Of a stretch of DNA of 38,858 bases, positions 190 to 35,900 are shown piece by piece; within the stretch, counting starts at the first letter, position 1, and the number at the start of each line of letters is the position of its first letter. Source of the DNA: Candidatus Cloacimonadota bacterium (GTDB taxonomy: Bacteria > Muiribacteriota > UBA6191); contig JACFNL010000027.1 of the NCBI GenBank assembly GCA_019454875.1, positions 1-38,858 of the forward strand, in the 5' to 3' direction. A program made the position numbers and the translations under genes. The notes below the pieces were generated by a model. It worked only from the letters and a program-made list of their open reading frames with translations. It did not search any database and was not told the DNA's origin.

Positions 190-235
190 TGATAATGTCG
201 TCTTGTCGATTTTTTAAATATTTGTGGAGATGAAC

Positions 236-19582: not shown

Positions 19583-19610
19583 TTTACAAAAGACAAAAAG
19601 CAATTAGAAT
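19583..19610 (+). promoter_or_regulatory. Putative sigma70-type promoter giving a near-leaderless transcript
   Basis: TTTACA (19583-19588), a 16-nt spacer and TAGAAT (19605-19610) each match consensus at 5 of 6 positions. The -10 box ends 10 nt before ATG 19621, so the predicted 5' leader would be only a few nucleotides. The box also overlaps ATG 19609, which argues that the upstream ATG is not used. Confidence 0.4.
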
Positions 19611-19620
19611 GGGCTGTCAC

Positions 19621-20451
19621 ATGAAAACTAAGAAAAAACCTGGTTCATTTTTAGCCGTACTCTTTATACTTTTAGTGTCCTGTGGCCACTGCTCTCTTGC
19701 TGGGACAGAGTCTTTGGATCAGGCCATTTTGAAGGTTCAGTCCTTAAATCTGGCTGGCCGGTATGAAGACGGGTTAAAACTCTTAAAGTCGGTAGAGGGG
19801 CGATTTATCCTCAGCTACAGGAAAGCCCAGTACTATATCTTAAGACAAAGGATTCTTCTTTTAGAGAATCGTCCCTATCAGGAAAAGATGATGCAGGAGG
19901 CCAAGGCCATGATCCGGCTTTTGGAAACAACTCCTGATAGCAGTTTTTTATCACATGGGCAGTCAGAGATGGATTTTTTTGTGTTAGGCCTGTCCCATTT
20001 AAAAAACAAACTGTCACTGATTCAGAAAACTTCCTATTCTTCCATGCTTTTGGCCTCACAGAGGGCCTTTAAAACCTGGGGCAATAAAAAGCATGAGTGC
20101 TATTGGACAGCCGTTTCGACAGCCAAACACAACGGTTCCATGGCTCAGACTCACTGGCAGTGGAAATCGGATCTGAGCTACCGAAGAAAGTCTTTGGCCA
20201 AAATTCCTGAGGCAATTGAAAAAGGTGTGTTAAAACCCGGTATGGTGGTATATGCCAACCGACGACCAGGTACAGATCCCAAATCCAGTAATCTCAGTAA
20301 CAAACCACATTGGTTCACTTTTCTTGGCTACAATGAAAAGGGACAGCCCATGTTTTCGGATCAGTATTTTGTGGCGACGGATTTTTCCAAAATGAAAACC
20401 TGGATTGCTGGCAGACTGATTGATAGCTTCTACGACCCCTATGATCGCTGA
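19621..20451 (+). CDS. Lipoprotein with possible NlpC/P60-like C-terminal domain (276 aa)
   Basis: The frame opens at ATG 19609, but ATG 19621 gives a clean signal (MKTKKKPGSFLAVLFILLVSC) whose L18-V19-S20-C21 is a good lipobox, predicting lipidation at Cys21. Residues about 28-130 look helical and TPR-like (LNLAGRYEDGLKLLKSVEG). The C-terminal part has Cys160 (HECYWTAVSTAKHNG) and, after KPGMVVYANRR, His230 in PHWFTFLGYNEKGQPMFSD. The order Cys ... His followed by hydrophobic strands recalls NlpC/P60 or CHAP peptidases. This is inference from spacing only. The gene stands alone; its TGA overlaps the first base of a 21-bp direct repeat. Confidence 0.7.
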   Translation: MKTKKKPGSFLAVLFILLVSCGHCSLAGTESLDQAILKVQSLNLAGRYEDGLKLLKSVEGRFILSYRKAQYYILRQRILLLENRPYQEKMMQEAKAMIRLLETTPDSSFLSHGQSEMDFFVLGLSHLKNKLSLIQKTSYSSMLLASQRAFKTWGNKKHECYWTAVSTAKHNGSMAQTHWQWKSDLSYRRKSLAKIPEAIEKGVLKPGMVVYANRRPGTDPKSSNLSNKPHWFTFLGYNEKGQPMFSDQYFVATDFSKMKTWIAGRLIDSFYDPYDR

Positions 20452-20471
20452 GATCATGAACAGGCTCTAAG
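20451..20471 (+). repeat. Left copy of a 21-bp perfect direct repeat bracketing a 6.2-kb module
   Basis: The sequence beginning AGATCATGAACAGG is identical over 21 bases to 26657-26677; the flanking bases differ. Its first base is the last base of the lipoprotein gene stop codon. The offset between copies is 6,206 bp. Confidence 0.9.
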
Positions 20472-20540
20472 AATCCTGAATATTAGAAAAGGATCGGATA
20501 TTCGCGTGGTTGTCTGTAGCCCCGCGATTCAATTTATCCA

Positions 20541-20569
20541 TTGACCCTATGCAAACAGCCACCCATAAT
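20541..20569 (+). promoter_or_regulatory. Putative sigma70-type promoter of the protease module
   Basis: TTGACC (20541-20546), exactly 17 nt, then CATAAT (20564-20569), each 5 of 6 to consensus, lie about 29 nt before the ATG at 20598. The rest of the 126-nt gap from 20472 holds an imperfect hairpin (CGCGTGG at 20503-20509 against CCCCGCG at 20520-20526) without a T-tract. No other gene-like signal is visible. Confidence 0.5.
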
Positions 20570-20597
20570 TATAATTGGTATTTGAGATTAAATATTT

Positions 20598-23500
20598 ATG
20601 TATAAAATTACCTGCCTGTTCCTGTACGCCTTATTTGGCACTGCCTTCGTGTTTGCTGAACCGCCTAGTCATTCAGATATTGCTATTGTTCGTGAGTCAG
20701 TGCAGTCGGAACCACCTTCATCAAATATCACAGCTTCAGATTTTCAGATCATCATTCCCCCTGTTACAGAACAGTACACAATCGTATCCGAATCCGCTCT
20801 TTCCTCTGTTACCGAGGTTGCCAGAATATTACAAAATGCCTTGTTATCGGCTATCAGCACCCCATCAGAAACCCAGACCTCACAGCAACTGTACATCCTG
20901 CAATTGGTGGAAAGCACCCTGGGACAGTTGGTAGTTTCTGAGCCTTTACGGGAATTATTGTTCAGTCATACCCAAACTCTATTCAATCTCTTCAAAGATC
21001 AACCACCAAAATTGGAAAATCTTGCTCTGACTATGGTTCATGCCTTGTTTTTGGAAAATCTCTTTGGGGTTCAGACACTGCCAGAGCAGGATCTATTAAG
21101 AAATACAAAGGTTATACAAAACCAGCCTCTACTATTAGAAATTACGGCATTAAGACCACTGATGAATTCACAGCGTAGTTACCATCGACTACAGCTACTG
21201 GAAAAAGTGGACTCCATAGAAACCCAGATACGGGGAAGTTCTATACTTCGTGGAGAAATTGTCGCCCTGGTACTAGCATCTTTGAGAAGTTTGGGTCAGA
21301 GCAGACAACAAGCGGAGATTCAAGCAGGTAATTTTGTGACCAGACTCAGCTCATTCCCTGAATATGCTCCTAGAGCTAATCGTTCTTCTACCCAGTATAT
21401 TCATCTGCCAGATCAAAAGCTCCAGCTTGTAAAAACAGCCACAGGAGCAAAAATTCGTCTGACCGGTAAAGTGGCATGGTGTGGGAAATTTTTTGGTGGT
21501 GGCCCATGCTGGCCCCACGACTGGTTACCCGTATACATTATTGCACGACATAGTACGGTAGACTCGTACCAGTATCACGATCTTTTTCGGGTACCATTAG
21601 CTTCAAAAATAGCTCCCGGGACTGAAATTGATATTCAATCGGAAGATATTTTTCAGCGATTCAAACAACAGTCTTCCGCCAAACCAGGCATATACAATAT
21701 AACCGTCATGTTGGCTCATTTTTCTATCAGTTCTTCACAATATTTTTCCTACTATCCTAGCCTTACCACTGAATGGCAAGATGTGGAATACACGGAAGGT
21801 GGGCAAGAACCCCCATCTGGCATGACCGTAAGCTTGGATTCTTTGAGTGTAACTCAGGTTGAGGGAGCCCCGCCATCTGCCAAGTCGGATGTTATTTATC
21901 TCTCCAATAAAAAACCCGTCAAACTGGAGTCCAGACTGTCTCTGACAGAAAAATTTACCCAAAATGATCAGTATGAGTTTGAATTTTTAATGGAGATGGA
22001 TGGCAACAAGCAGTCGCTTTTGAAACGAAGAGTTAATGCGGCCACCTTTTCTGGGAGTTCTGCCGCCAATATAGCCATGACTCTTTTGCCTCTGGAAATG
22101 GTTGGCTTTGAAGGTAAAGAGGGTAAGATTATTGCCAGTTTAAGAGCTATGGATCGTAGTAAATCAACAACCATTAACAAGTTGGTTAGGTATGGTCAAT
22201 GGTTGGTTAAGGTATTGAGTTGTGATGAACCAAAAGCTGAGGTTGCCCCAACCAACGGGATTTTAAGTGACTATTACAATGTACAAAACTGTAATTTTGA
22301 GGTGGAGGGGGACTCTGATCCTGATGAATATTATATCCGTATTACGGAACATACACTATCTTTGAGATCGGATGGTGAGGATGTAGCTGCAGTGTTTCAT
22401 AGAGGCTCACTGGCATTGAATAATGTCAGTCCAAAAGAGGAGCCACTTATTGATGGAATCACAAGCCCAGGAACTTGGACATCCAGTCTGAAAACGAAAG
22501 GAAAAAAGTTTTCCTTTCGTTTTGTTTCCCGACCAGTATATTTCCCGATTGATTTATCTGATGGGGAGCACTTTTATAAAACCCCGGTAGAACCTTTGGT
22601 AAAATTTCATATCAAACCAGTTAGCTCTATTCTTCAATTGTATACAACAGCACCAGTCTTATTATCAGATAGTGGAAATGCAGAAGCTACTTCCATGCAG
22701 TTTCCAATAAAACAACCTAGGGAAACCATCGTTTCTCATCAGGGAGTCTCCAATCCATTCTGGTTTGCCAAATCTATAGAACAGTTTCTTGAGCATTATA
22801 AACATATTCCTTATGTCAACCAGGTGCTTCGTCAACTGGATATCCACTATGGCATGGAAAAAAAAGTTCAAAGAGAAATTGTGAATAATCCTTATGTGGT
22901 GAAATTGTGGTATGCCCATATTTTGGATGATACTGCCTCAGTAGAACATCCGGCGGGTATATTTAAGCCGGGAGACTTGTCTGATCTGAGTGTGCCTGGA
23001 AAAGTTGTTGTTGAATCCTTTTATTCAATAACCCGCCGTAATGCGGAAGGCTCTGGGGTTTATCATGGAATTCCACAGGACATGACTTTTAAGTATAATC
23101 TGCTTGGAACTCTATTGCATGAGCTACGGCATGCCTACCAGCATGTACTGGCCCATACGGATCATACAAAGAATCTGGATAAGGATTATTTTGTACCTTG
23201 TGATGCTTTGGCAACCGGATTTTCAATTTATGGCTATGGAGAATGTAACAAGTTTCAAAATGGACTGACGATTCAGGGGATACGGAGTTTTAAAGAAATT
23301 GATCATGGATTTTTAATTGATCCTGTAAAGCTGCAAATCAGCAATCAAACGATTTCTCTGGGCTGTAATATCCTGCCTGGCCATGATTTTATTGAAGGAG
23401 TAAATAATAGTTTACCCGACAGTGCCCTGGGTTCTATGGCCCGTGAGGCCGATTCTCACTATTTTGAATGGTGGTTCACTAACAACCTGAATGACAAAAC

Positions 23501-24623
23501 TCCTTTACCAATAAAGCCAACCACCTCTTTGCCTGCACCTCAGTTCTCGAATCTTCCCTCCGCCCCCACAAGTTCTCTGGTTATTTTCCCCAGTAATCCT
23601 CCCTTGCTGTGTCATCTCCCTGTGAACACATTTTATAAGGCAGAACAGGATTGGATAGAAAGTAAGGATCACACTGTGATCATTCCATTTCATAAAGTAG
23701 CCAATCAGTGTGTACTGGTAAATGGAAGTATTGCCAATAAGACAGAAAAAACTGTGCAGGTACAATTCCGTAGTGCTGCCGGGGAAGGTGCTGTAAGTAG
23801 CCCTATCAAGGAAATAAAACTTTCTTTTCTTGGTCTGGAAAAAATACCGGAGAATGTTCAGTCTTGTGATGGGGGGGTGAGTAATTTTCCTAAACCAGTT
23901 CTAATTGGAGACCCATCTGGCTCAACAGATTCTATGATAAGGGTAAAAGTTCAGAATTTTCCAAATTCGACTTCGCAGCCAGGTGTCAAGATCTGGATTC
24001 AAGTGAACAGTGTCAATGTCAGTTCTTCCTTTAACTATAATGGGAAATACCTGGATATTCCATTTAATCCCCAATACTCCTATTGCACCAAACCAGGTAG
24101 TGCAATGATCACGCAAACCAAAAAATCAATAGTCGCCAGATTTATGCATGCGGATTTTCCTAATACCGTGGGACTACCAGGGAGTCTTGAAATATCTCGA
24201 GTGGGTGTGGAAATTGCTCCAGCAGGCTACACTTGTTTTCAAAATCCTGTACCACAGCTTAAAGCACCAACAACAAATTTGAATACAAATGTGGTCCAGA
24301 CAAAAACCTTTGATTTTGAGTTACTGAATCTGCCTTCTGCACAAGGGGCAATTACTAAGGTATCTAGCACTTCTCAAGCTGTGGGCGGAGTGGCTCAATC
24401 TGATACCAAGGAGGTTCGCGGCAGCAGGGTAACTATAAATTATAGAAAATTGTTTTCTCATTGCGCCTACCTGCAAAACCCACCATTATACGGTCATCAA
24501 AAACAAATTTCCTTACAGTATAAAGTACCTGGATTATCCCCGGGACCAACCACTAAATGGACTCAGAATTTTGAAGGATGGGACTATCATCCGGGGCCCT
24601 CCTACAGTTGCCACAGGGAGTGA
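20598..24623 (+). CDS. Secreted putative zinc metalloprotease with Ig-like tail (1,341 aa)
   Basis: A Sec signal peptide (MYKITCLFLYALFGTAFVFA, cut before EPP) starts at ATG 20598; the ribosome binding site is weak. Residues 841-845 are HELRH in the context LLGTLLHELRHAYQHV, a gluzincin-type HExxH helix. A likely third ligand is Glu950 in MAREADSHYFEWW, about 105 residues downstream. This pattern suits a zinc peptidase; substrate unknown. Before it lie an N-terminal helical region (about 40-260) and several beta domains. After it, from about 1,150, at least two similar Cys-containing beta modules repeat (landmarks NPQYSYCTKP and RKLFSHCAYL). Codons near 22491-22523 form a perfect 15-bp inverted repeat. 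Its stop lies 4 nt before the next gene, whose ribosome binding site is inside its last codons, so they are coupled. No known family is identified beyond the motif. Confidence 0.75.
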   Translation: MYKITCLFLYALFGTAFVFAEPPSHSDIAIVRESVQSEPPSSNITASDFQIIIPPVTEQYTIVSESALSSVTEVARILQNALLSAISTPSETQTSQQLYILQLVESTLGQLVVSEPLRELLFSHTQTLFNLFKDQPPKLENLALTMVHALFLENLFGVQTLPEQDLLRNTKVIQNQPLLLEITALRPLMNSQRSYHRLQLLEKVDSIETQIRGSSILRGEIVALVLASLRSLGQSRQQAEIQAGNFVTRLSSFPEYAPRANRSSTQYIHLPDQKLQLVKTATGAKIRLTGKVAWCGKFFGGGPCWPHDWLPVYIIARHSTVDSYQYHDLFRVPLASKIAPGTEIDIQSEDIFQRFKQQSSAKPGIYNITVMLAHFSISSSQYFSYYPSLTTEWQDVEYTEGGQEPPSGMTVSLDSLSVTQVEGAPPSAKSDVIYLSNKKPVKLESRLSLTEKFTQNDQYEFEFLMEMDGNKQSLLKRRVNAATFSGSSAANIAMTLLPLEMVGFEGKEGKIIASLRAMDRSKSTTINKLVRYGQWLVKVLSCDEPKAEVAPTNGILSDYYNVQNCNFEVEGDSDPDEYYIRITEHTLSLRSDGEDVAAVFHRGSLALNNVSPKEEPLIDGITSPGTWTSSLKTKGKKFSFRFVSRPVYFPIDLSDGEHFYKTPVEPLVKFHIKPVSSILQLYTTAPVLLSDSGNAEATSMQFPIKQPRETIVSHQGVSNPFWFAKSIEQFLEHYKHIPYVNQVLRQLDIHYGMEKKVQREIVNNPYVVKLWYAHILDDTASVEHPAGIFKPGDLSDLSVPGKVVVESFYSITRRNAEGSGVYHGIPQDMTFKYNLLGTLLHELRHAYQHVLAHTDHTKNLDKDYFVPCDALATGFSIYGYGECNKFQNGLTIQGIRSFKEIDHGFLIDPVKLQISNQTISLGCNILPGHDFIEGVNNSLPDSALGSMAREADSHYFEWWFTNNLNDKTPLPIKPTTSLPAPQFSNLPSAPTSSLVIFPSNPPLLCHLPVNTFYKAEQDWIESKDHTVIIPFHKVANQCVLVNGSIANKTEKTVQVQFRSAAGEGAVSSPIKEIKLSFLGLEKIPENVQSCDGGVSNFPKPVLIGDPSGSTDSMIRVKVQNFPNSTSQPGVKIWIQVNSVNVSSSFNYNGKYLDIPFNPQYSYCTKPGSAMITQTKKSIVARFMHADFPNTVGLPGSLEISRVGVEIAPAGYTCFQNPVPQLKAPTTNLNTNVVQTKTFDFELLNLPSAQGAITKVSSTSQAVGGVAQSDTKEVRGSRVTINYRKLFSHCAYLQNPPLYGHQKQISLQYKVPGLSPGPTTKWTQNFEGWDYHPGPSYSCHRE
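22491..22523. repeat. Perfect 15-bp inverted repeat with 3-nt loop inside a CDS
   Basis: The left arm AAAACGAAAGGAAAA (22491-22505) and right arm TTTTCCTTTCGTTTT (22509-22523) are exact reverse complements separated by AAG. It lies in frame within the protease gene and encodes a Lys/Phe-rich stretch (KTKGKKFSFRF). Confidence 0.95.
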
Positions 24624-24627
24624 TTTT

Positions 24628-25611
24628 ATGATTTTTTTTATACTCATATTTTTAAGTTCCCATGCCTACGCCTATGAAGATATGGAGAAGTGGCCTTTTT
24701 GCCAGGATCTTCTAAGCGAATATTCACCAGAGAAAATTCGGGATGATGTTATAACAGATATCAATTTAATGAATGATGTGGCATCCTTAGAATATACAGA
24801 TAAAACTATTTGGGTAAAAGATACAATTTATCATCGTGCAGCAGTCAATAGGGTTTTGGCAATTGCTAAAATGCAGAGAACCCGTGCTGAACCTGCTAGG
24901 ACATTGCAGGATATAGGACATCTCAAAGATCTCTATGTACAAGCTACTCTGTGTATTGCTGGCCTTACTGAGTTGTCAAATTTAATCGAATGGGTAGGGC
25001 AAAACTCTTCTTATTACTCGAGTTTATTATTGATCCATAAAGATGCTCTTGGCACTAGAACGGATTATCTTGATTATCTCTGGAGTATTCGCAATGAAAC
25101 CTGGGACCTAAGTATTGGGCAGCGAGGTATTGTGGTGCGCCTAATGCAAGCAGGTTTAGAAGATAAAAAGTTTTTTGATTTTGTTTCTCCTGGAATCCGC
25201 AGTAGTTACATTCACTACATTCCCATGCTTGAGTTTTTTCAGAGAAGTACTGGGTTAAATCATGAGACTCTGAGACAGGCTTTAAGACATGAGGACTATT
25301 ATGTATTTGAGTGGGCAGTAAAAAAGATTTCCTCCCAGCATATTACTGATCTTTATTCAGAGTTAGCGGATGCAATTAATCAGTTAATTCGTGTAACAGG
25401 TAGAACTGTACCGGATAAATCTGAAATGAGGAAAGGGAAATTGCGTTTGTTCACTCAATATAGATATTTACCTTTTGAGGATGAAGTTCTGGTCTATGAA
25501 TATACCCCTCACCATCTTCATCCACCTCCTGCATGGAATCTCCATCCCATTCCCCCCGATCCCAAAATCAAGGAGGCGTACCAAACCAGAAAAAGTGATA
25601 AACTTTATTAA
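24628..25611 (+). CDS. Secreted protein of unknown family, mosaic paralogue A (327 aa)
   Basis: The open frame begins further upstream (TTG 24571), but ATG 24628 is chosen: AGGGAG lies upstream, the paralogue has the same arrangement, and the reading gives a short signal peptide (MIFFILIFLSSHAYA). I recognise no domain. Residues 16-42 (YEDMEKWPFCQDLLSEYSPE...) and about 146-327 nearly match the neighbouring paralogue. Residues about 43-145 are related but strongly diverged, still sharing a Cys (LCIAGLTELSNL). The middle/C-terminal part is helical (LRQALRHEDYYVFEWAVKKI); the tail is His/Pro-rich (TPHHLHPPPAWNLHPIPPDP). Eight T residues follow the start codon region. It sits 4 nt behind the protease gene and is probably co-expressed. 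Candidate roles are protease substrate, inhibitor or surface factor; all are inference. Confidence 0.75.
   Translation: MIFFILIFLSSHAYAYEDMEKWPFCQDLLSEYSPEKIRDDVITDINLMNDVASLEYTDKTIWVKDTIYHRAAVNRVLAIAKMQRTRAEPARTLQDIGHLKDLYVQATLCIAGLTELSNLIEWVGQNSSYYSSLLLIHKDALGTRTDYLDYLWSIRNETWDLSIGQRGIVVRLMQAGLEDKKFFDFVSPGIRSSYIHYIPMLEFFQRSTGLNHETLRQALRHEDYYVFEWAVKKISSQHITDLYSELADAINQLIRVTGRTVPDKSEMRKGKLRLFTQYRYLPFEDEVLVYEYTPHHLHPPPAWNLHPIPPDPKIKEAYQTRKSDKLY
25358..25576 (+). repeat. 219-bp tract identical to 26405-26623, copy 1
   Basis: By eye every base, synonymous positions included, is the same in the two paralogous genes across this tract. Sequence before and after it differs. The copies are 1,047 bp apart. 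It encodes the C-terminal helical and His/Pro-rich part. Confidence 0.9.
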
Positions 25612-25677
25612 CTTCCGTAGCGGTATCAAGGAAACTGTTCCCGGGTTCAGCGCACAGCAGCCACAGGGAGTGATTTT

Positions 25678-26658
25678 ATGATTTTTTTTATGCTTATATT
25701 TTTTAGTTTCCCGGTCTACGCTTATGAAGATATGGAGAAATGGCCTTTTTGCCAGGATCTTTTAAGCGAATATTCACCAGAGAAAATTCGGGATGATATA
25801 AGCAGAGATATTAGTCTTCGTATGAGTGTTCCAGAATCCGAATACATTACAAGGACTATATGGCATACGGATCCTGGGTATCATACGGTTGCATTAAATC
25901 GGGCTAAAGACATCGTTAAATGGCCTGCAACGCCAGAAAGTGCGATGCAGCACCCTAGTCATATTGATGGCATTATAATTGAGTCTGTGTCCTGCATTGC
26001 GGAAATGGTTACTCTGTCTAATTTTCCTGCTTATTTTGAAGGCAGAGGATTTGATCGTATCGCGGTCAGATTGAACTTGATACAAAAGGATATCTTTAGC
26101 ACTCGTACAGAGTATCTCGAATATCTTTGGAGCATTCGCAACGAGAACTGGAATTGGGGAACGAGTCATCGAGTTATCCCTGTACGCTTAATGCAAGCAG
26201 GCTTGGAAGACAAAAAGTTTTTTGATTTTGTTTCCCCACGAATCCGTAGTAGTTACCCTCACTACATTCCCATGCTGGAGTTTTTTCAGAGAAGTACCGG
26301 ATTAAATCATGAGACTTTGAGGCAAGCATTAAAGCACGAGGACTATTTTGTGTTTGAGTGGGCAGTAAAAAAGATTTCATCTCAGCATATTACTGATCTT
26401 TATACAGAGTTAGCGGATGCAATTAATCAGTTAATTCGTGTAACAGGTAGAACTGTACCGGATAAATCTGAAATGAGGAAAGGGAAATTGCGTTTGTTCA
26501 CTCAATATAGATATTTACCTTTTGAGGATGAAGTTCTGGTCTATGAATATACCCCTCACCATCTTCATCCACCTCCTGCATGGAATCTCCATCCCATTCC
26601 CCCCGATCCCAAAATCAAGGAGGAGTACAAAATTAGGAAGAGTGAGAAACTTTATTAG
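25678..26658 (+). CDS. Secreted protein of unknown family, mosaic paralogue B (326 aa)
   Basis: This tandem duplicate of the preceding gene has the same leader DNA (GCCACAGGGAGTGATTTT before ATG 25678), the same short signal peptide type (MIFFMLIFFSFPVYA) and the same His/Pro-rich tail. It keeps N-terminal YEDMEKWPFCQDLLSEYS and differs most at residues about 43-145. The 5' homologous block starts within what was the 3' end of the protease gene, so the duplication carried the ribosome binding site with it. Homology to copy A runs to the codons for KLY and then breaks; its TAG stop is completed by the first two bases of the right 21-bp direct repeat. The spacing from copy A is 66 nt and shows no clear promoter. 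Function is unknown. Confidence 0.75.
   Translation: MIFFMLIFFSFPVYAYEDMEKWPFCQDLLSEYSPEKIRDDISRDISLRMSVPESEYITRTIWHTDPGYHTVALNRAKDIVKWPATPESAMQHPSHIDGIIIESVSCIAEMVTLSNFPAYFEGRGFDRIAVRLNLIQKDIFSTRTEYLEYLWSIRNENWNWGTSHRVIPVRLMQAGLEDKKFFDFVSPRIRSSYPHYIPMLEFFQRSTGLNHETLRQALKHEDYFVFEWAVKKISSQHITDLYTELADAINQLIRVTGRTVPDKSEMRKGKLRLFTQYRYLPFEDEVLVYEYTPHHLHPPPAWNLHPIPPDPKIKEEYKIRKSEKLY
26405..26623 (+). repeat. 219-bp tract identical to 25358-25576, copy 2
   Basis: This is the second copy of the perfect tract in the tandem paralogues. Immediately upstream the copies show scattered differences, and the core of the genes is far more diverged. Confidence 0.9.
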
Positions 26659-26677
26659 ATCATGAACAGGCTCTAAG
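26657..26677 (+). repeat. Right copy of the 21-bp perfect direct repeat
   Basis: Identical to 20451-20471. It begins in the stop codon of paralogue B and contains the stop codon (complement of 26673-26675) of the giant minus-strand lipoprotein gene. Collapsing the two copies would leave the lipoprotein gene at 19621 and the giant gene converging with 15 nt between stops. Confidence 0.9.
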
Positions 26678-29600
26678 GTCTCATACTTCTTTGATATAAA
26701 AGTCCTGAATCTGAACTACTGTACAGGTCCAGCACTTCTGTACCAAGGGGTAAGAATCCTATGTCTTTTGCCAGTGTTTTGATGTTGCCTGGGGTTTCCA
26801 GCCAGGTTGTCCCCATATTTTGAGAATAATAGATGCCTTGATTGGTCATGGCGTAGATTCGTAATCCACCACTTCCTTCCAGAATCTGTAGTTTTTGGAT
26901 AGAGGCATCAAGATTCTGGGTTATTAGGGTGAACGAAGGAGCGCCTGGGTAGTAGAGATATCCTTTTTCATTGATTACGGCAAAGATGGCTTGTGTGGTT
27001 TGGGTGGCGGCAATTAAAGAAGAAATAGATGCCTGAGTCACCATTAGGGCAAAATTCTGGGCATTATCCAAAGAGCGATACAACCCGGTACTGGTAGCTG
27101 CATAGACTTCAGAGTTCAAACTGGTTAATCCAGTGATGGTAGTAGCACCCAAGGCTGGTAATGCCGTTGTAAAACTAATCCCTCCATCTGTGGAACGAAA
27201 AAGCCCGTGTGTTTTTGTACCAACTAAAACCAGGTTGTTAATAGCTGGAGCAAAGTGAATCTGTACAACTTCAGTACTAGGAGTTTGCAAGGGCAGCGAG
27301 TGGCTGATGGTGGAACCACCCATCATGCCAATCGAAAATATTCCCTGGGTTGTTCCCAGATAAACTCTTTGAGAGGACTCTTTTAAAGCCAGACTCAAAA
27401 ATTCTGTGGCCGGAGCCTCCATAGGAGTTAGGACAGAGGATGTGGGGAAATAGTGGTACAGGGAATCTGTCAGCATCAGTACCATGGAAGTTTGCAGGCT
27501 AAGGATTGAGTGAAGTTTTGGTTGAAACAGGGTGCTAACTGTTTGTGGGTTGGCAGAAAATGGTTGGGTTAAGTTGTATACAAGATTTTGCGAACCAACC
27601 AGAATAGGATTAGTGGTTCCGATATTTGCCCCTAGAGCTAAAATGGTGTCTGAGCCAAGGCTTTGGGTCTGATTCCAGCTAACACCGGCGGAATTGGAGG
27701 CGTACAGTGCTGAAGTTGAGGCGGCAAGAAACTCTCCACTTTGCAGCACTAAAAAATCCTGGATGGGGGATGTGACCGTAACCGATTGAAACACTGGTTT
27801 TACAAACTCGGTTTCATCGCCGAGATTGCTGGTAATCAACAAGGTTTTATCCTGTAAGATAAGTCCCATGTAATTTGGCTGGGATGGATGCAGGCGGATT
27901 TTAACCACATTGGTAGTGGTTGTGGTGGGAATGGAATTTCCCGAGGCTTTAAGATTCCAGGAGCCAAAAGAGCCCGTTTTATCGGTAAAAAATACCCCGC
28001 CTTTTGTGGCGACAAACACCTTTTGCTGGTTCACTGCTAAATCCACAATGTTGGTGTTATTGGCATCCAGGGTCAAGGGGCCAAATTCGTTCATGTTAAA
28101 AGGAAAATTTAAGCCAGAGTCTTCAGAACGATACAGATACTGGGTTGTACCGGCATAGGCTCTGACAGAACTATCTGGATCAAAGGCTACGGCCTGTACC
28201 TGCCGATTCTGGTGATTTGCCTTCGGAACCATAGACCAGGTTGTACCCCCGTCTGTGGATCGAAACAGACCAGTATCATAGGCGGCCAAAAGGATATTGG
28301 TGGAAGTTGGATGCTGAGCAAAGGACAGGAGACTGGTATTGGGAAGGCCTTTTTGTAAAGAGACATAGCTTAAAGGATTTAAGCTGATTTTCCCCAGTCC
28401 ATTTCTGGAGTGAATAAAGTAGGTATCATTGCCTGGATAGGATGCAAAAACTTTTTGAATATTCAAATCTGTCACAGGAATCGTTAAGGAAGAAAGTTGA
28501 ACTTCAGAAAAAGCAGTCCTAAGAACTTTAGCCGTGGTGAGTAATGAGGTATTTTGAGAGGGCTCTCTAAAAAAATACTCATAAACATGGGCCGATTCGG
28601 AGTTTAAACCAGTGCTGTATGTTGTTGAACCGGATGAGTTAGTTTGCCCAATGGCCAGAGAGTTCAGATAAACAGAGGTACTGGCCTGGCCAGTTACACT
28701 AAATTGAATCGTAGCGCTACTGGTGACAAACCAGGATGGAGTAAGCGAGGGCGGCTCTGGAATACTTCGATCGATGGTTTTGAACACTGCGGCTGTAGAG
28801 CGAAGAGGTGATGTATTTCCGGCTTCGTCTCTTAGACTAATGGAATCCAGACTATAAAAGCCAGCTTCATCGCTACCAGATTGTACTGTGTAATGTGTGC
28901 GAAAGGTAATCCCGTCTACCGAGGAGAAGTGTAAAATTTCACCTAAAAATGTTACCGGAACAAGGTTTCCCGAGGAGTATTTGATAACAGTTGCTCCCAT
29001 TTCGGAGGCCTGGGAGATCAGTTCAAAAGTTACTCTTTGTCCAACCCCCACGGACTCTGGTTGTGGGTTAAGAAAGTTAAAGGAAGAAATAACCGGAGGA
29101 TTGGCATCAATTCTGGAATACACATCGGTTGTGGATATAGATGTGCTGAGCCCGGCCGCATCAGTAGCCGTCAGACTTAATTGAAGGGGTGATGATTGGT
29201 CAGGATGGTTGGTGTCGATGGTGTAGGTGGCTTTCCAGATTGTTCCTGAGTCTGTGCTTATAAAGGACAGAGGTATGGAATTATAGGTAGCTGAGGTAAA
29301 AGATAGATTGGCCTCAGCCGTACTTAAGACCAAAGTAAATTGAATTGAGTCTCCAACCTTTAGAGATGTTGATAATATGGATGGTAGAGAACTAAGGCTC
29401 AGAGCCAGTGGTGGATTCACATTGATTGGCAATGTTACTCCACCCAAAAGAGCATTGGTTGAACCCGTATTGAGGGATTCGTTTCCAGCACGGTCGTAAA
29501 ACCGTACTCCACTCAGTTGCAAGGGTAAATTCTGATCCGCATGAGTTGTCAACACAGTATAGGTCGATTTATATGTCCCGGAATTTTCACTAAATGTAAG

Positions 29601-32600
29601 CAGTTGTCCGTTATAGACAGCCGTAGCATAACCCTGAAGCTCCACCGATGTACCCTGGCCAGAACGAGGAGAGGCAATCAGTTCAAATTGTAAAAAATTA
29701 CCAGGAGTTAAAACAGTGACTGGACTTGAGGATAGTACACTGACACTTTGGATCTGAGGGGCGATTGAATCCAGAATTCTTGTGATGGGAGGAGTGCTTA
29801 AGATACTTTGGGTCAGATTTCCGGCTGTATCTCTGGCGGCGATTCCGGTGAGCGCAGGGATAGCTAAATTGGTATTGGTACCACCTTCCACTAGAGTGTA
29901 ACTGCTGGTCCAGTGAATTCTATCGGTGGAGCTAAAGGTCAGGGATTGAGAATTGTATAAAGCGGTAATACTGGCTGGAGCATCATTTTCGCAACTATTG
30001 TCAAGACATGCACCAGTTGCCACAATAGTGAATTGTATAGAGTCCCCAATTTTTATGTATTCTGTACTGGTACCAGTTCCAGCATAGCTGAACAAAAGCT
30101 GATTTAAAATGGGGCGGGAAACATCTATGCCTTTGGCGACACTGGTAGTTGAGACATTAGCTTGATTGCCAAAGGAGTCGGTAACATTTACGGTTAGCTG
30201 TTCGGGAGTAGGGTTTGATGCATATAGTGTAGTTACTTGAAAAGTGCCTCGTTTGAGAGTGTAAACACTGGGCTCAGGCGAAGTGACCGTATTAAAATTG
30301 AGAGGAAACCCTTTATACAGTGAGTTGACCTGAGCTGATGCGTCTGGAGGGCTAATCTGCACATCAAAAACGATTTGATTGTCCGTTGTAGGCTTATCGT
30401 TATATATGCTTAAAATGCCAGCCGTGGCCGCATTGTGAGTGATTACCACTGTGGGTGGCTGGGCCTTTAATCTGTAGGGTAAATTTGTGGTAATGAGGCT
30501 TGGTCCAAGGTTTCCCACTCTGTCAATCAGTCGGGCCTGTAATTGGGGCGCGGTTATGGGTGCATCAGGAAAGGAACCGGAATGGACATAGGTGGCTATA
30601 AAAGATAAGGAGCTACTTTGGGTGAATGAGAGCGAGACTGTGTTGTAAACGGCAGTTACAGATACAACATCTGATAAGGAAGAAGTCTCAGGAATAATTG
30701 TGAAAACAATGGCTTCCCCAGATGCAACCGTTTGATCCTGGGCTGAGTGAAGCAACTGCGAAATCACAGGCTCTTTAGCAAGTATGGCTCGCAAAATATC
30801 CGTACTTGAGGCCGCAACACTGGCATTATTGGCTTTGTCATAAGCAATAATATTGCTGAACTGTACCGGGCTGGTTGTACTTCCATCCAAAGAAGTTATG
30901 GTGTGGTACCCCAGCCATTGACTACCATTTGTAGTGTTCAAGGTTATTGGGGATGAACCAAACTTGGCTTCTACCCTATCTACCGGATCCATACCCCCAC
31001 TGGTATTGTCAGCAGAAACGGCTACCGAGAGAGTCAGGGTATCCCCAATCTTAAACAGGGTTGGCACAAGTGAGGAACTTATGGAGGTCGTACTTATGGT
31101 CTGAATGATTGGTGGTAAGGTGTCAATTCCAAGTTGAAAGTTAGTACTTAGATAAGAGGTAAGGTTGGAGGCCTGATCCAATATGGTCAGACTTAATTGA
31201 GGCCATGAGGGATTGTGGACATGAGTGGATAAAATTGTTATAGAAGTGGAGTAGCGACTGCCTTCAGCATTACTGGTTAAAACCAGAGGCAGTGAGTTGA
31301 ATACTCCGGTAACAATCAGACTGATTTCTGAGGTAACCGGGTCCATATAAAATTGTACAGAACTGCCTATGCCAACAGTACTTGCAAATGATGGCACCAC
31401 CCCTGCGGTCATCACAGAAACGGGCAGATTATCCAGAAGCCAGGTCATGGAAGTAGTACTGGTCGAAGAGGAAGTATTGCCTGAGGAGTCTGTGATTATG
31501 ATCTGGGTTAGTTGTGGTGGACTGGACAGGCTTAAGGCATGGGTACTTAAGAGGGTGTAGGTGGATATCAGGTTGGGACCAAAACTCAGTGGAATTCCAT
31601 TAAAGAGGGCAGTGGCGGCAGTTACATCTGTGCTGGCTGGGGAAGTCTGTAGGCTGAATGTAACTTGGTCCATTAATTTCAACCAGGTTCCAGGACTGGA
31701 TTTTGCAAGGCTTAGAGATGCAAATACAGGGCGCACCGGGTCTATGTCACGCACCGGGGTAGTTGGCGAGTTAAACGGTTCCGATGAATTACCCCATCTA
31801 TCCGTAATTTGAACCTGAGTAACAGGCAGACTCCCATAAAATGACAGATCGTTCTCAGCTATAACATAGGTTGCTATCAGAGTCTCAGAAGTTGATTCCC
31901 TTAAAAAATTTAAGGCTCTGGAATTTAAGCTAAACTGAAGGTTTAGATCAGTTTCCCATTGTTGAGGTTTAATGGAGTAGACAATTTGATCCCCAATCCC
32001 CAACGACAGGGGTTTTGAGGGTAGAGCAGAAATCAGACTGATTTGAGGTCGGGTAGTATCAATTGACAAAAAAAAAGGGTAAGTCCCGGCGGTGCTGGGA
32101 TTGCCGGAATTTCTTTGCACTACCAGATTTTCCAAATGCAGAAGACCGGTGTTTATATTCCACTCAGGTAAAGAAAATGTGGTGCTCAATTGATTTTGAA
32201 TACCTTGATAAACAAAGGTCAGAGGTATTGAAGGAGTGGCAGGATTAAGATTAGCTGTTGCTCGAAATACATCCGAATCTGAATTGAAGTTTAGGTGAAT
32301 TTGAATTGTGTGGCTGATAATAGCCGTACCTGAGGTTGACAGGGATGTAGCCCCTACCGATTGCGGTATTGAGGTTCTTGTGTCTATGGTTTTACTCACT
32401 GGAATGCTTAATCCAGTGGAAACATTTTTGGCAGGGTCACTCAAAAAAATCTGCAAATTGGAGGGCTGAAAACTGGTGGGAATGGTTTCAAGGATGGGAA
32501 TGGTTGTTTTAAATAGGGGGGGAGTGGAGATAAATCCGTAGTCTTGACCCAAAAATGACACAGTAGCAGTTAAGGGAGTGGTTGAGCCCAATGGTTCTTT

Positions 32601-35600
32601 GGAAGCATCGGGAAGAATCTCAAGTTCCAGGTAGTCCCCAATCCGTAGAATACTGGCAGTAGTACTGTAGTTAAGGCTCGATTGAGCAATGGCTGGCCGC
32701 AAATTATCGTAGATTGCCATCACGGATTGAATTCTATCACTCGTAGGCAACATGGCCGGATTTCCAGCTAAATCAGTTACGGTTAGCACAAGTTGCGGTG
32801 GTACCCCAGTGCCTGGAAAAGGTGACATTGTCTCATCAATTGTGACCTCGGCTCTCCAGTATGCTCCTGAGGCAAAAGGAGTGAACGACAAAATTTTTCC
32901 GGCATAACTTGATGAAAATTGCAGGTTTGGATCAGCCTGAAAGAAGGAAACGGTAAATTCAATTTTTTCTTGCAGTCCTAGAGTGGCTGGACTTGATCTG
33001 TTGTTGCTAATGAGAGCGATTTCCGGGGATGTGGTATCAATACGGTGTTGTGACTCTCGGCTTGTTACCAGGGAATTGCCGGCCGAGTCCCTTATGTTTA
33101 TAAGCAAACGATATGGCAGGGATGCATTATCCAGATCCTGGGCAGTGGCGGTGTAAATCATCCGATATCGCAGGTTATCCGTACTGGTAAAACTAAGATT
33201 CTGAGCCAGGGTCTCGGAATTTGCCCCCAGTCTTAAGGCAGAGGCAATAAGATTAGGCTCCGGCTTTGAAAACAATAGTTCTGTCACTATGGACTGATTG
33301 GCGCGGATGAGGGTCTGGGGTGCTGTGAAACTTACACTGTTTAAGATTGGAGCCACCGTGTCCAAACCAACCGGAAGAACATGCATAGTCTGGGTCTGAT
33401 TTTTTAGCTTGTCTTGGGAACTAAGGTAAAAAACCGGGGTCAGGGTTTCTATGGACAGTTGTGACAGAGATAGACTGGTCTGAAATAGTGAGTTATTGAT
33501 ACTGGCAAGCGACAGGTTAAAGGTGGGATGAGAGATGGATACAAAGGCATCAGGTTCGGGTTGAATGGTTTGATAAGAAAAAGTGATCGAATCTGTAGAA
33601 CTTAAAACCGGCTTTGGGTTGTGCGAAAATGATAGGGTTCCCTGAGGGGGGAGATTGTCCTGCAAAATCTGGATTTGCGTGCTTGTGGAACGATTGCCGG
33701 CCCTGTCCTCGAGCAAAAAACTCAGGAAATTGTTTTGATTCTCCATTAGGGGAATCGCTGTCAGAAAGTTTCCTGAAAACTGGCTGGTAATAGGAACTGA
33801 AGTCAAATACAAGGCTGTATTACTTTCTCCGCTAAATTGGATTGATATTTGAGTCGAACTGGTTTCAAAGGCTTGAGGTACAGCCACTGGTGGCAGTGGT
33901 GCCGTGGTGTCAAGAATAGTTGTGAAGTCGTAGGTTTTTGGATTTCCTGCTCTATCGGTTAACTCCCATTCAAACTTCCAGGCTCCATCCGAGGGTGTGG
34001 CAGGCAGAGGCAGATACATCTGACATATGCTTGTGCTTAGGCTTGTGCTTAGGCTTGTGGGAATAAATCTAAGATGACAAGTGGTTTGCGCCAAAATTTG
34101 TTGGCTGGTTTGATAAACGGTACTACCCAGACTTGCCTTTAATACGGTATGTGAGATTTCTGATAGAGAAAATTCCAGCGGCAGCAATAGATTTTGGGTC
34201 AGAATTGGGTGGGCCGGAGTGGATACAAATTGTGGAGGTATGCTGTCATACACAATATTTGTCATACATTTGCCCTGATCGGCTGGGGAAATGGGGTTAA
34301 AGTTGGGGCAGGCTAAAGAGTTGCCGGCCAAATCCTGCCCTTCCAGATCCAGATAATAAGTTCCATTGGGGCCATCAAACAGAAGATTCAGGATGTTTGT
34401 ATTCAGGCTTGTATATTGCAAATTGGGCGCGGAAACTGGGTAAAAGCGGTAGCGTAAATTGTTGACCTGTTCGCTAAGGCCCAGATTTAAGCTCAGGCTT
34501 TTATTGGCAAATTCGGGTAGAGATATGGGAATCACTGGCTTGGTATTGTCCATAATTCCCGAATAGATTAAGGTCTGTGAGTTTATGTCATCTGTAATAA
34601 CTAGCTCGAGCTTCAGTTCGCCCGGGACAAGATTTTGAAGGCTTATGGAACCGGTTTGTAGTGAGATAGTACCCTGGCTACTTTTTACAGTGGTGATGCG
34701 GGATTGATCGGATGAGTCACTGAGATTGAATTGAAAGTTGAGCTGGGTTTGATTAAAAAATACAGGAAATGTTGGGTTTAGGGTAATGGAAGGGGGTAAA
34801 TCGTCATGAGTTACCGTAAACGATGCCCTGGACTCCAGTCCCTGACTGGCAGAAACAATTTCCAGAAAGCTCGAAGTGTTAAGATTTAATGCAATGGGAA
34901 TAGAAAACTTTCCATCAGTTGCGGATACGGTACTGGCAACCAGTACTTTGTCGCGATAAAACGAAACAACCTGGCTAGGGGGGCTGGTTATCCCTTTTAA
35001 TTCAATGGTGGGAGTGGAGGTTCTTAAAGCGATTGGTTCAAAACTGAGTTTGACCCCAGCTAAAAGGTTGCCATCATTACTTTTAATGCTTTGTATTAGT
35101 CCGTTATCCAGGGTTAAACCACTGGTGTTGCGAGTAGAAATTAAAAAACTCTCAACCGAGGCCGCTAGTTCATTGGTTGCAAACCCACTGGCGATTTGTT
35201 GCTGGTTTAGAATCAGAGGACCATTTTCAGATATACCGTCAAGTTTTCCATCTTTGGCATCCTGGCCTAAAAGTTCTGTGATTGTATCTGGATGTGTCAG
35301 GTATTTTGCGGCCAGTTCAGAAACACCAGCCAGAACACTCTGGTAACGGCTGGTATCCTTCATGACCAAAATGTCGCTTAAGCCATAGATGGAGGCCACG
35401 GCACTAGAGACGGTTTTGATGGCTTCTGAATTGAGATTGGGCTGAGACTGAAGCATCTTTGCAGCAATCTCTGTCAGCGGTGTGACCGAAAAGGTGGTTT
35501 CTGCCTGATTGGAGGGAATGATGGCGTTTAACTGGCCTAAGGTATAAGTTTTTTGGGTGGCCTCATCGGTGTAAGTGCCTCCCTGGGCCTTAAATTTTAA

Positions 35601-35900
35601 GGGTCTGGTGGTTTGTTTAATCTGTCCGCTAAACTTTCCTTCTGCATTGGTTTTTACGGTACCAATCAGTATTTCCTGTCCCTGATCCAGGATCTCAAAA
35701 ACCTCCACTGTGGCTGAAGATACAGGGCCTTTTATTACTAACCCACTAACACTCATGGTTGGGGTGTCCGGGAACACTCCAGGGCTATCATTTAAGCCTG
35801 AATTCACGCCTGGACCTGTCGAACCTGAGCCCCCACAGCCGCAAAAAATCAAGGCAGCCCAGAGCAATAACCCAAAATTTAGACAGATTTTTTTGTTCAT
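26673..35900 (-). CDS. Giant lipoprotein with Ig/cadherin-like repeats and BNR propeller (3,075 aa)
   Basis: The signal peptide MNKKICLNFGLLLWAALIFCGC predicts lipidation at Cys22 (the -3 residue is Phe, slightly unusual), followed by a Gly/Ser linker. Residues about 50-150 resemble a carboxypeptidase-regulatory-like beta module (VSGLVIKGPVSSATVEVFE ... TPLTEIAAKML). From about 350 to 2,450 there are many repeats of about 110 residues, each with a GN-x-S/T and (I)D-x-x-P-x-I boundary and an IGDSIQFTI-like strand, typical of bacterial Ig/cadherin-like stalks. The C-terminal 600 residues carry Asp-box/BNR motifs (FRSTDGGTTW, YRSEDSG, FRSTDGGIS, YYSQNMGTTW), as in sortilin/sialidase-type propellers; no sialidase active site is visible. 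It is probably a long surface stalk ending in a binding head. No ribosome binding site precedes ATG 35900. Confidence 0.87.
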   Translation of the reverse strand: MNKKICLNFGLLLWAALIFCGCGGSGSTGPGVNSGLNDSPGVFPDTPTMSVSGLVIKGPVSSATVEVFEILDQGQEILIGTVKTNAEGKFSGQIKQTTRPLKFKAQGGTYTDEATQKTYTLGQLNAIIPSNQAETTFSVTPLTEIAAKMLQSQPNLNSEAIKTVSSAVASIYGLSDILVMKDTSRYQSVLAGVSELAAKYLTHPDTITELLGQDAKDGKLDGISENGPLILNQQQIASGFATNELAASVESFLISTRNTSGLTLDNGLIQSIKSNDGNLLAGVKLSFEPIALRTSTPTIELKGITSPPSQVVSFYRDKVLVASTVSATDGKFSIPIALNLNTSSFLEIVSASQGLESRASFTVTHDDLPPSITLNPTFPVFFNQTQLNFQFNLSDSSDQSRITTVKSSQGTISLQTGSISLQNLVPGELKLELVITDDINSQTLIYSGIMDNTKPVIPISLPEFANKSLSLNLGLSEQVNNLRYRFYPVSAPNLQYTSLNTNILNLLFDGPNGTYYLDLEGQDLAGNSLACPNFNPISPADQGKCMTNIVYDSIPPQFVSTPAHPILTQNLLLPLEFSLSEISHTVLKASLGSTVYQTSQQILAQTTCHLRFIPTSLSTSLSTSICQMYLPLPATPSDGAWKFEWELTDRAGNPKTYDFTTILDTTAPLPPVAVPQAFETSSTQISIQFSGESNTALYLTSVPITSQFSGNFLTAIPLMENQNNFLSFLLEDRAGNRSTSTQIQILQDNLPPQGTLSFSHNPKPVLSSTDSITFSYQTIQPEPDAFVSISHPTFNLSLASINNSLFQTSLSLSQLSIETLTPVFYLSSQDKLKNQTQTMHVLPVGLDTVAPILNSVSFTAPQTLIRANQSIVTELLFSKPEPNLIASALRLGANSETLAQNLSFTSTDNLRYRMIYTATAQDLDNASLPYRLLINIRDSAGNSLVTSRESQHRIDTTSPEIALISNNRSSPATLGLQEKIEFTVSFFQADPNLQFSSSYAGKILSFTPFASGAYWRAEVTIDETMSPFPGTGVPPQLVLTVTDLAGNPAMLPTSDRIQSVMAIYDNLRPAIAQSSLNYSTTASILRIGDYLELEILPDASKEPLGSTTPLTATVSFLGQDYGFISTPPLFKTTIPILETIPTSFQPSNLQIFLSDPAKNVSTGLSIPVSKTIDTRTSIPQSVGATSLSTSGTAIISHTIQIHLNFNSDSDVFRATANLNPATPSIPLTFVYQGIQNQLSTTFSLPEWNINTGLLHLENLVVQRNSGNPSTAGTYPFFLSIDTTRPQISLISALPSKPLSLGIGDQIVYSIKPQQWETDLNLQFSLNSRALNFLRESTSETLIATYVIAENDLSFYGSLPVTQVQITDRWGNSSEPFNSPTTPVRDIDPVRPVFASLSLAKSSPGTWLKLMDQVTFSLQTSPASTDVTAATALFNGIPLSFGPNLISTYTLLSTHALSLSSPPQLTQIIITDSSGNTSSSTSTTSMTWLLDNLPVSVMTAGVVPSFASTVGIGSSVQFYMDPVTSEISLIVTGVFNSLPLVLTSNAEGSRYSTSITILSTHVHNPSWPQLSLTILDQASNLTSYLSTNFQLGIDTLPPIIQTISTTSISSSLVPTLFKIGDTLTLSVAVSADNTSGGMDPVDRVEAKFGSSPITLNTTNGSQWLGYHTITSLDGSTTSPVQFSNIIAYDKANNASVAASSTDILRAILAKEPVISQLLHSAQDQTVASGEAIVFTIIPETSSLSDVVSVTAVYNTVSLSFTQSSSLSFIATYVHSGSFPDAPITAPQLQARLIDRVGNLGPSLITTNLPYRLKAQPPTVVITHNAATAGILSIYNDKPTTDNQIVFDVQISPPDASAQVNSLYKGFPLNFNTVTSPEPSVYTLKRGTFQVTTLYASNPTPEQLTVNVTDSFGNQANVSTTSVAKGIDVSRPILNQLLFSYAGTGTSTEYIKIGDSIQFTIVATGACLDNSCENDAPASITALYNSQSLTFSSTDRIHWTSSYTLVEGGTNTNLAIPALTGIAARDTAGNLTQSILSTPPITRILDSIAPQIQSVSVLSSSPVTVLTPGNFLQFELIASPRSGQGTSVELQGYATAVYNGQLLTFSENSGTYKSTYTVLTTHADQNLPLQLSGVRFYDRAGNESLNTGSTNALLGGVTLPINVNPPLALSLSSLPSILSTSLKVGDSIQFTLVLSTAEANLSFTSATYNSIPLSFISTDSGTIWKATYTIDTNHPDQSSPLQLSLTATDAAGLSTSISTTDVYSRIDANPPVISSFNFLNPQPESVGVGQRVTFELISQASEMGATVIKYSSGNLVPVTFLGEILHFSSVDGITFRTHYTVQSGSDEAGFYSLDSISLRDEAGNTSPLRSTAAVFKTIDRSIPEPPSLTPSWFVTSSATIQFSVTGQASTSVYLNSLAIGQTNSSGSTTYSTGLNSESAHVYEYFFREPSQNTSLLTTAKVLRTAFSEVQLSSLTIPVTDLNIQKVFASYPGNDTYFIHSRNGLGKISLNPLSYVSLQKGLPNTSLLSFAQHPTSTNILLAAYDTGLFRSTDGGTTWSMVPKANHQNRQVQAVAFDPDSSVRAYAGTTQYLYRSEDSGLNFPFNMNEFGPLTLDANNTNIVDLAVNQQKVFVATKGGVFFTDKTGSFGSWNLKASGNSIPTTTTTNVVKIRLHPSQPNYMGLILQDKTLLITSNLGDETEFVKPVFQSVTVTSPIQDFLVLQSGEFLAASTSALYASNSAGVSWNQTQSLGSDTILALGANIGTTNPILVGSQNLVYNLTQPFSANPQTVSTLFQPKLHSILSLQTSMVLMLTDSLYHYFPTSSVLTPMEAPATEFLSLALKESSQRVYLGTTQGIFSIGMMGGSTISHSLPLQTPSTEVVQIHFAPAINNLVLVGTKTHGLFRSTDGGISFTTALPALGATTITGLTSLNSEVYAATSTGLYRSLDNAQNFALMVTQASISSLIAATQTTQAIFAVINEKGYLYYPGAPSFTLITQNLDASIQKLQILEGSGGLRIYAMTNQGIYYSQNMGTTWLETPGNIKTLAKDIGFLPLGTEVLDLYSSSDSGLLYQRSMRP
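34029..34059. repeat. 12-bp in-frame tandem repeat in the giant lipoprotein gene
   Basis: The unit GCTTGTGCTTAG occurs twice in full and once as its first 7 bases. On the coding strand it gives a Ser-Thr-Ser-Leu repeat (TSLSTSLSTSIC). Its length, a multiple of three, allows expansion without frameshift. Confidence 0.9.

Follow-up and report, generated by a model that had tools for sequence, protein, structure and literature searches.

The closest described relatives of the repeat analyzed here are prokaryotic MITEs (reviewed in PMC10969869): like them, the element that carries the repeat core is about 176 bp long, has terminal inverted repeats (TIRs), contains no gene, is present in multiple copies and shows a 3-bp duplication at some of them. 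Unlike those elements, the window studied here (the whole 38,858-nucleotide stretch of DNA that was analyzed) shows just single 16-bp TIR scars, and no matching autonomous element was identified. For the genes enclosed by the repeat, the T6SS immunity-gene arrays of Vibrio cholerae, which arose through displacement of effectors and homology-facilitated illegitimate recombination, provide a second comparison (PMC5361080). In both systems a large effector-like gene precedes a set of related small genes, orphan copies of which occur elsewhere, and both appear to be reshaped by recombination in the related genes; unlike the V. cholerae arrays, our cluster has no T6SS parts that we could see and its sites are unrelated intergenic ones, so that the likeness to displaced effector–immunity arrays may serve as a lead only. 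HNH homing-type endonuclease genes offer a further parallel, as multi-copy genes of this kind (PF01844) lie beside two loci of the cluster, one in the window's own genome (G000) on contig C12 and one in its sister genome (G001) on C372. Here the parallel stops at the window cluster itself, which has no HNH gene, and mobilization of the cluster as cargo is a proposal of the present work.

The bracketed cluster and its flanks

The window contains a cluster of three genes, encoding an exported putative metallopeptidase (the protease) and two paralogous proteins (A and B), bracketed by two copies of the 21-mer AGATCATGAACAGGCTCTAAG that are identical at 21/21 positions (Table 1). Leaving the paralogue pair aside, the window has no other direct repeat that reaches 18 bp, and with about 2e-4 exact 21-bp pairs expected in 38.9 kb by our own arithmetic, a chance origin is rejected. 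The first base of the left copy is also the final A of the ORF280 TGA, and the right copy both supplies the AG of the paralogue B TAG (26656-26658) and encloses the stop codon of the giant gene (CTA, 26673-26675); the positions and the relations to all three stop codons given by the initial annotation are thus exact. Its two further observations here, a break in A/B homology at this point and the lack of an integrase or transposase inside, hold as well, in that the homology ends at the stop codon and no integrase or recombinase is found among the three cluster genes. Between the left 21-mer and the protease start (20598) lie 126 bp, including the likely promoter, and the left limit of conserved cluster sequence falls in this leader/promoter region, not at 20451.

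Table 1. Coordinates of the cluster, the bracketing repeats and the flanking genes in the window.
Feature	Position	Strand	Description
ORF280, left flanking gene	19609..20451	+	280 aa; native C-terminus; collinear with G001 C366 to the contig edge
Left 21-mer	20451..20471	+	probable single MITE TIR; 16-bp core 20452-20467, then TAA; abuts TGA of ORF280
Protease leader/promoter region	20525..20597	+	start approximate; conservation shared with the G001 C9 copy from about 20540
Exported putative metallopeptidase	20598..24623	+	1341 aa; HELRH motif; relatives G001 C9 (78%), G000 C12 (57%)
Paralogue A	24628..25611	+	327 aa; signal-peptide-like N-terminus
Paralogue B	25678..26658	+	326 aa; mosaic
Right 21-mer	26657..26677	+	probable single MITE TIR; core 26658-26673, then TAA; same junction in G001 C372
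Giant right flanking gene	26673..35900	-	3075 aa; Ig-like and BNR/sortilin-like repeats; collinear with G001 C372

The protease has a sub-threshold match to DUF6782, keeps its HELRH motif in three homologues, and is encoded twice in G000 and once in G001. The G001 orthologue on C9 (L036, 123-4209) is spread over two reading frames by a frame shift, which may mark either a pseudogene or a sequencing error. Four copies of the A/B paralogues are found in G000 and about six, fragments included, in G001; beyond the genus there are two marginal matches only (G003, G036). The paralogue matched no Pfam family above the cut-off and no NCBIfam family, and its AlphaFold model was poor (pLDDT 51), with no fold match in the PDB. 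Paralogue units share the spacer CTTCCGTAGCGGTATCAAGGAGA... (25612-25677 in the window, 520-596 in L040), which at C372 and C330 of G001 combines with the HNH-side leader into the inverted repeat ACCGCTA...TAGCGGT. Consisting of an exported putative metallopeptidase and exported, recombining partners, the cluster could encode an enzyme together with its inhibitors or partners. Outside the cluster, a second giant gene occupies 224-9493 (3089 aa; both giants have about 3,080 codons), and its C-terminus carries a putative formylglycine/sulfatase-modifying-factor-like domain, as read from the sequence.

A MITE-like element family carrying the repeat core

When DNA of the left junction was searched against G001, many short matches that stop at the same bases were returned. 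The core of the 21-mer, GATCATGAACAGGCTC, is the 16-bp TIR of a MITE-like element of about 176 bp, found with up to 2 mismatches at 47 places in G001 (9 exact) and 19 in G000 (of which the 2 exact ones are the window copies), compared with 0 matches for the reversed 16-mer used as a control. Inverted 16-bp ends bound gene-less elements of 176-178 bp in both genomes, and a whole-element search recovered at least eight full-length copies in G001 (C72, C160 twice, C127, C200, C370, C144 and C337) and two in G000, both on C110. In an alignment of five full G001 copies (C72, C127, C144, C160, C200), the two from G000 and one internally deleted copy of 63 bp (C41), 3-bp target duplications are seen as TTA/TTA at C127 and C144 and as TAA/TAA at C200; the duplication is imperfect at other copies, with 2/3 bases, and none is visible at the G000 C110 copies. 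By its structure, with inverted ends, a short target duplication and dispersed multiple copies, the element is a MITE. Its TNA-type duplications presumably resemble those of the IS1031 group of IS5-family elements. An IS matching the MITE would have GAGCCTGTTCATGATC ends; among the 16-mer matches listed for the incomplete G000 and G001 genomes, there are no TIR pairs that have the proper orientation and lie 0.7-2 kb apart. In G001, MITE copies or single TIRs lie less than about 100 bp from HNH genes on C39, C56, C127 and C247, and the TIR on C39 abuts an HNH gene without its 5' part.

Lone TIRs occur at about ten places in G001 in addition to the two in the window. In nine of the ten listed single TIRs the preceding dinucleotide is GA or TA, as it is before the right TIR within the MITE, and the single TIRs on G001 C199 and C126 are exact 19-bp insertions relative to the orthologous G000 sites. 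Because the G000 orthologues are without exactly these 19 bases, single TIRs are likely to be either short insertions or remnants that deletion has left of MITEs. The window junctions read CGCTGA-TIR-TAAG on the left and TTATTA-TIR-TAAG on the right; as both fit the single-TIR pattern, the 21-base identity can be accounted for by the 16-bp TIR, the A that precedes it, the family's preference for TAA targets and one chance G. The window 21-mers are therefore probably one-ended MITE relics, not insertion scars of the cluster. The initial annotation had considered that the 21-mer might prove to be an unrelated dispersed element; for its core this is the case in the sister genome, and in G000, a 3.83-Mb assembly in 214 contigs, the full 21-mer has no other copies at up to 3 mismatches.

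Cluster positions and junctions in congeneric species

To locate the cluster sites, flanks were found in the other genome by a concatenated query of the flanking genes. A cluster in G001 is split over C9 (pilX, protease and the start of a paralogue) and C135 (the paralogue tail, the paralogue B orthologue and potD), two contigs joined across an assembly gap on the basis of the empty site in G000 C34, where pilX and potD overlap with nothing between them. Likewise, the second G000 cluster comprises C12 (mraY, an HNH gene directly upstream of the protease copy) and C208 (paralogue and a rhodanese/selU-like gene), joined across a gap on the basis of G001 C13, where mraY and the rhodanese/selU-like gene overlap. 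Paralogues are also carried by G001 C330 and C282, and the orthologous G000 regions are without one; a scan of genome contigs added no further relatives. Judged from these comparisons, the cluster sits at different intergenic places in congeneric species. The proposal that a cassette of roughly 6.2 kb is mobile as a unit thus stands as far as a relocating cluster is concerned, each of the two genomes having one site that is cleanly empty, and is not supported as far as the 21-mer was taken for its footprint.

Between the species, DNA identity is 80-88% for the protease and paralogues and 77-82% for the flanks; since the cluster has diverged about as much as its flanks, vertical inheritance with relocation is more probable than recent import. 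Recent acquisition from a phage or plasmid is likewise rejected, as tblastn searches of 72,556 plasmids with the protease and of 50,697 phages with paralogue B gave no match, and the divergence is about that of the flanks. Neither a 21-bp bracket nor a comparable duplication is found at the pilX-potD, mraY-selU, C330 or C282 sites. Directly after paralogue B at the G001 pilX-potD site, on this one side only, there is a 40-bp degenerate MITE end, and given this fragment the MITE and the cluster may be mechanistically linked. To the left of the window cluster and of the C9 cluster, no MITE remnants rose above shuffled background.

On the right side of the window cluster, the comparison is with G001 C372, where the paralogue ends in ...GAGAAACTTTATTAG, with ATCATGAACAGGCTCTAAGG directly after it and then the giant gene, giving the order paralogue-TTATTAG-ATCATGAACAGGCTCTAAGG-giant gene; as this is the same junction, the right 21-mer predates the species split. 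Window positions 25609 to 28607 are collinear with C372 at 82% DNA identity, and the gene upstream of the C372 paralogue is not ORF280 but a divergent HNH endonuclease gene, after which the contig ends. On the left, the ORF280 orthologue in G002 ends at about the same residue, and G001 C366 stops inside its ORF280 orthologue, before the junction. Among the genomes compared, none has ORF280 next to the giant gene with the cluster missing. Whether ORF280 and the giant gene are an ancient neighbor pair cannot be polarized with G002 and G003, because the two genes lie apart in G002 and the giant gene has another neighbor in G003. The view taken in the initial annotation, in which the 21-mer marks an insertion footprint or crossover site, accordingly fares poorly: the core is a dispersed MITE TIR, other cluster insertions have no such bracket, and the right copy is already present in G001 beside a different paralogue.

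Paralogue B is itself a mosaic. Its identity is 85-98% to G001 C135b over about 25838-26290, 98-100% to paralogue A over about 26398-26617, and 95-98% to the resident C372 paralogue at the giant-gene locus from about 26618 (the last 40 bp or so of the gene) through the 21-mer. Because its identity switches so sharply along the gene, homologous exchange among paralogues has likely shaped the end of B.

Possible routes of cluster placement

We consider it most probable, at roughly 0.6 and jointly with the reading of the 21-mers as MITE relics, that a resident cluster family was placed by recombination beside an old paralogue-giant junction, with the MITE scars as bystanders. Insertion or deletion of MITEs would have left the two single TIRs of the window, each of which lies directly after a stop codon, and the cluster family (HELRH protein and tandem exported paralogues, elsewhere beside HNH genes) occupies differing intergenic sites in congeneric species. 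Homologous recombination in the paralogue gene would place or reshuffle the cluster with that gene as one anchored end, and the left end would be joined without extended homology. Recombination in the paralogue is the most likely route because the right junction is old and B carries the 3' end found there in G001; it remains our interpretation, as do the direction and order of the moves.

The main rival makes the TIR itself the crossover, with a TIR-bearing cluster entering a TIR between convergent ORF280 and the giant gene, by a Campbell-like or short-homology event, and leaving direct TIR repeats; it is the idea of the initial annotation in a form that takes a MITE scar for the site. What keeps it in play, at perhaps one chance in four, is that the only exact TIRs in G000 lie at exactly the two cluster edges and in the same orientation, an uncomfortable coincidence if these insertions are unrelated. 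Collapsing the repeats also yields a compact convergent gene pair, of the kind found at the empty sites elsewhere, and the age of the right copy fits a TIR that was there beforehand. Such a crossover is harder to reconcile with the pilX-potD and mraY-selU insertions, which have neither a left-edge TIR nor a direct repeat, with the separate locations of ORF280 and the giant gene in G002 and the other neighbor of the latter in G003, and with the right end of B, which points to paralogue recombination instead.

It is about equally tentative that HNH genes move the clusters in a homing-like manner by cutting new intergenic sites, the protease and paralogues being cargo; this could be combined with either of the preceding accounts, so that the likelihoods given are not exclusive. 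HNH genes adjoin the G000 C12 protease and, in G001, the paralogue next to the giant gene, a matching HNH-side leader is found at a third cluster locus (G001 C330), and the HNH protein matches PF01844 (E=3.9e-6). The window cluster, however, has no HNH gene, nor does one lie to the left of the G001 C9 cluster, and with so many copies around, a shared preference for intergenic sites may be enough to explain their proximity. Copies and fragments number dozens per genome in G000 and G001, fall into at least two N-terminal subfamilies, and lie in many cases at or near contig ends. Somewhat more speculative still is the idea that MITE TIRs or HNH genes act as entry points by which a cargo cluster with no mobility gene relocates from one convergent gene junction to another, which would make it a new kind of non-autonomous genomic island.

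A misjoining of contigs through the shared 21-mer is very improbable: the MAG is in 214 contigs, and in both genomes a number of contigs end within these repeats, but the right junction recurs in an independent assembly, and a wrong join on the left could have formed only if both pieces already contained the 21-mer. Least credible of all is a 21-bp target-site duplication made by a recombinase of unnamed type at cluster insertion, for despite the perfect direct repeat and the two intact flanking genes, the 16-bp core is a dispersed TIR, the clear 3-bp duplications are the MITE's and not the cluster's, no integrase or transposase lies inside, and nothing comparable is found at other cluster sites. 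As a general rule, a 21-bp target duplication or att site is rejected on the same grounds, other insertions having no 21-mer.

In conclusion, the position of this cluster is truly polymorphic between species of an almost unstudied phylum, and the repeat that brackets it in the window is probably transposon debris. The clean pairs of empty and occupied sites at two places in these genomes offer a system in which to learn how cargo without an integrase may move among intergenic sites.
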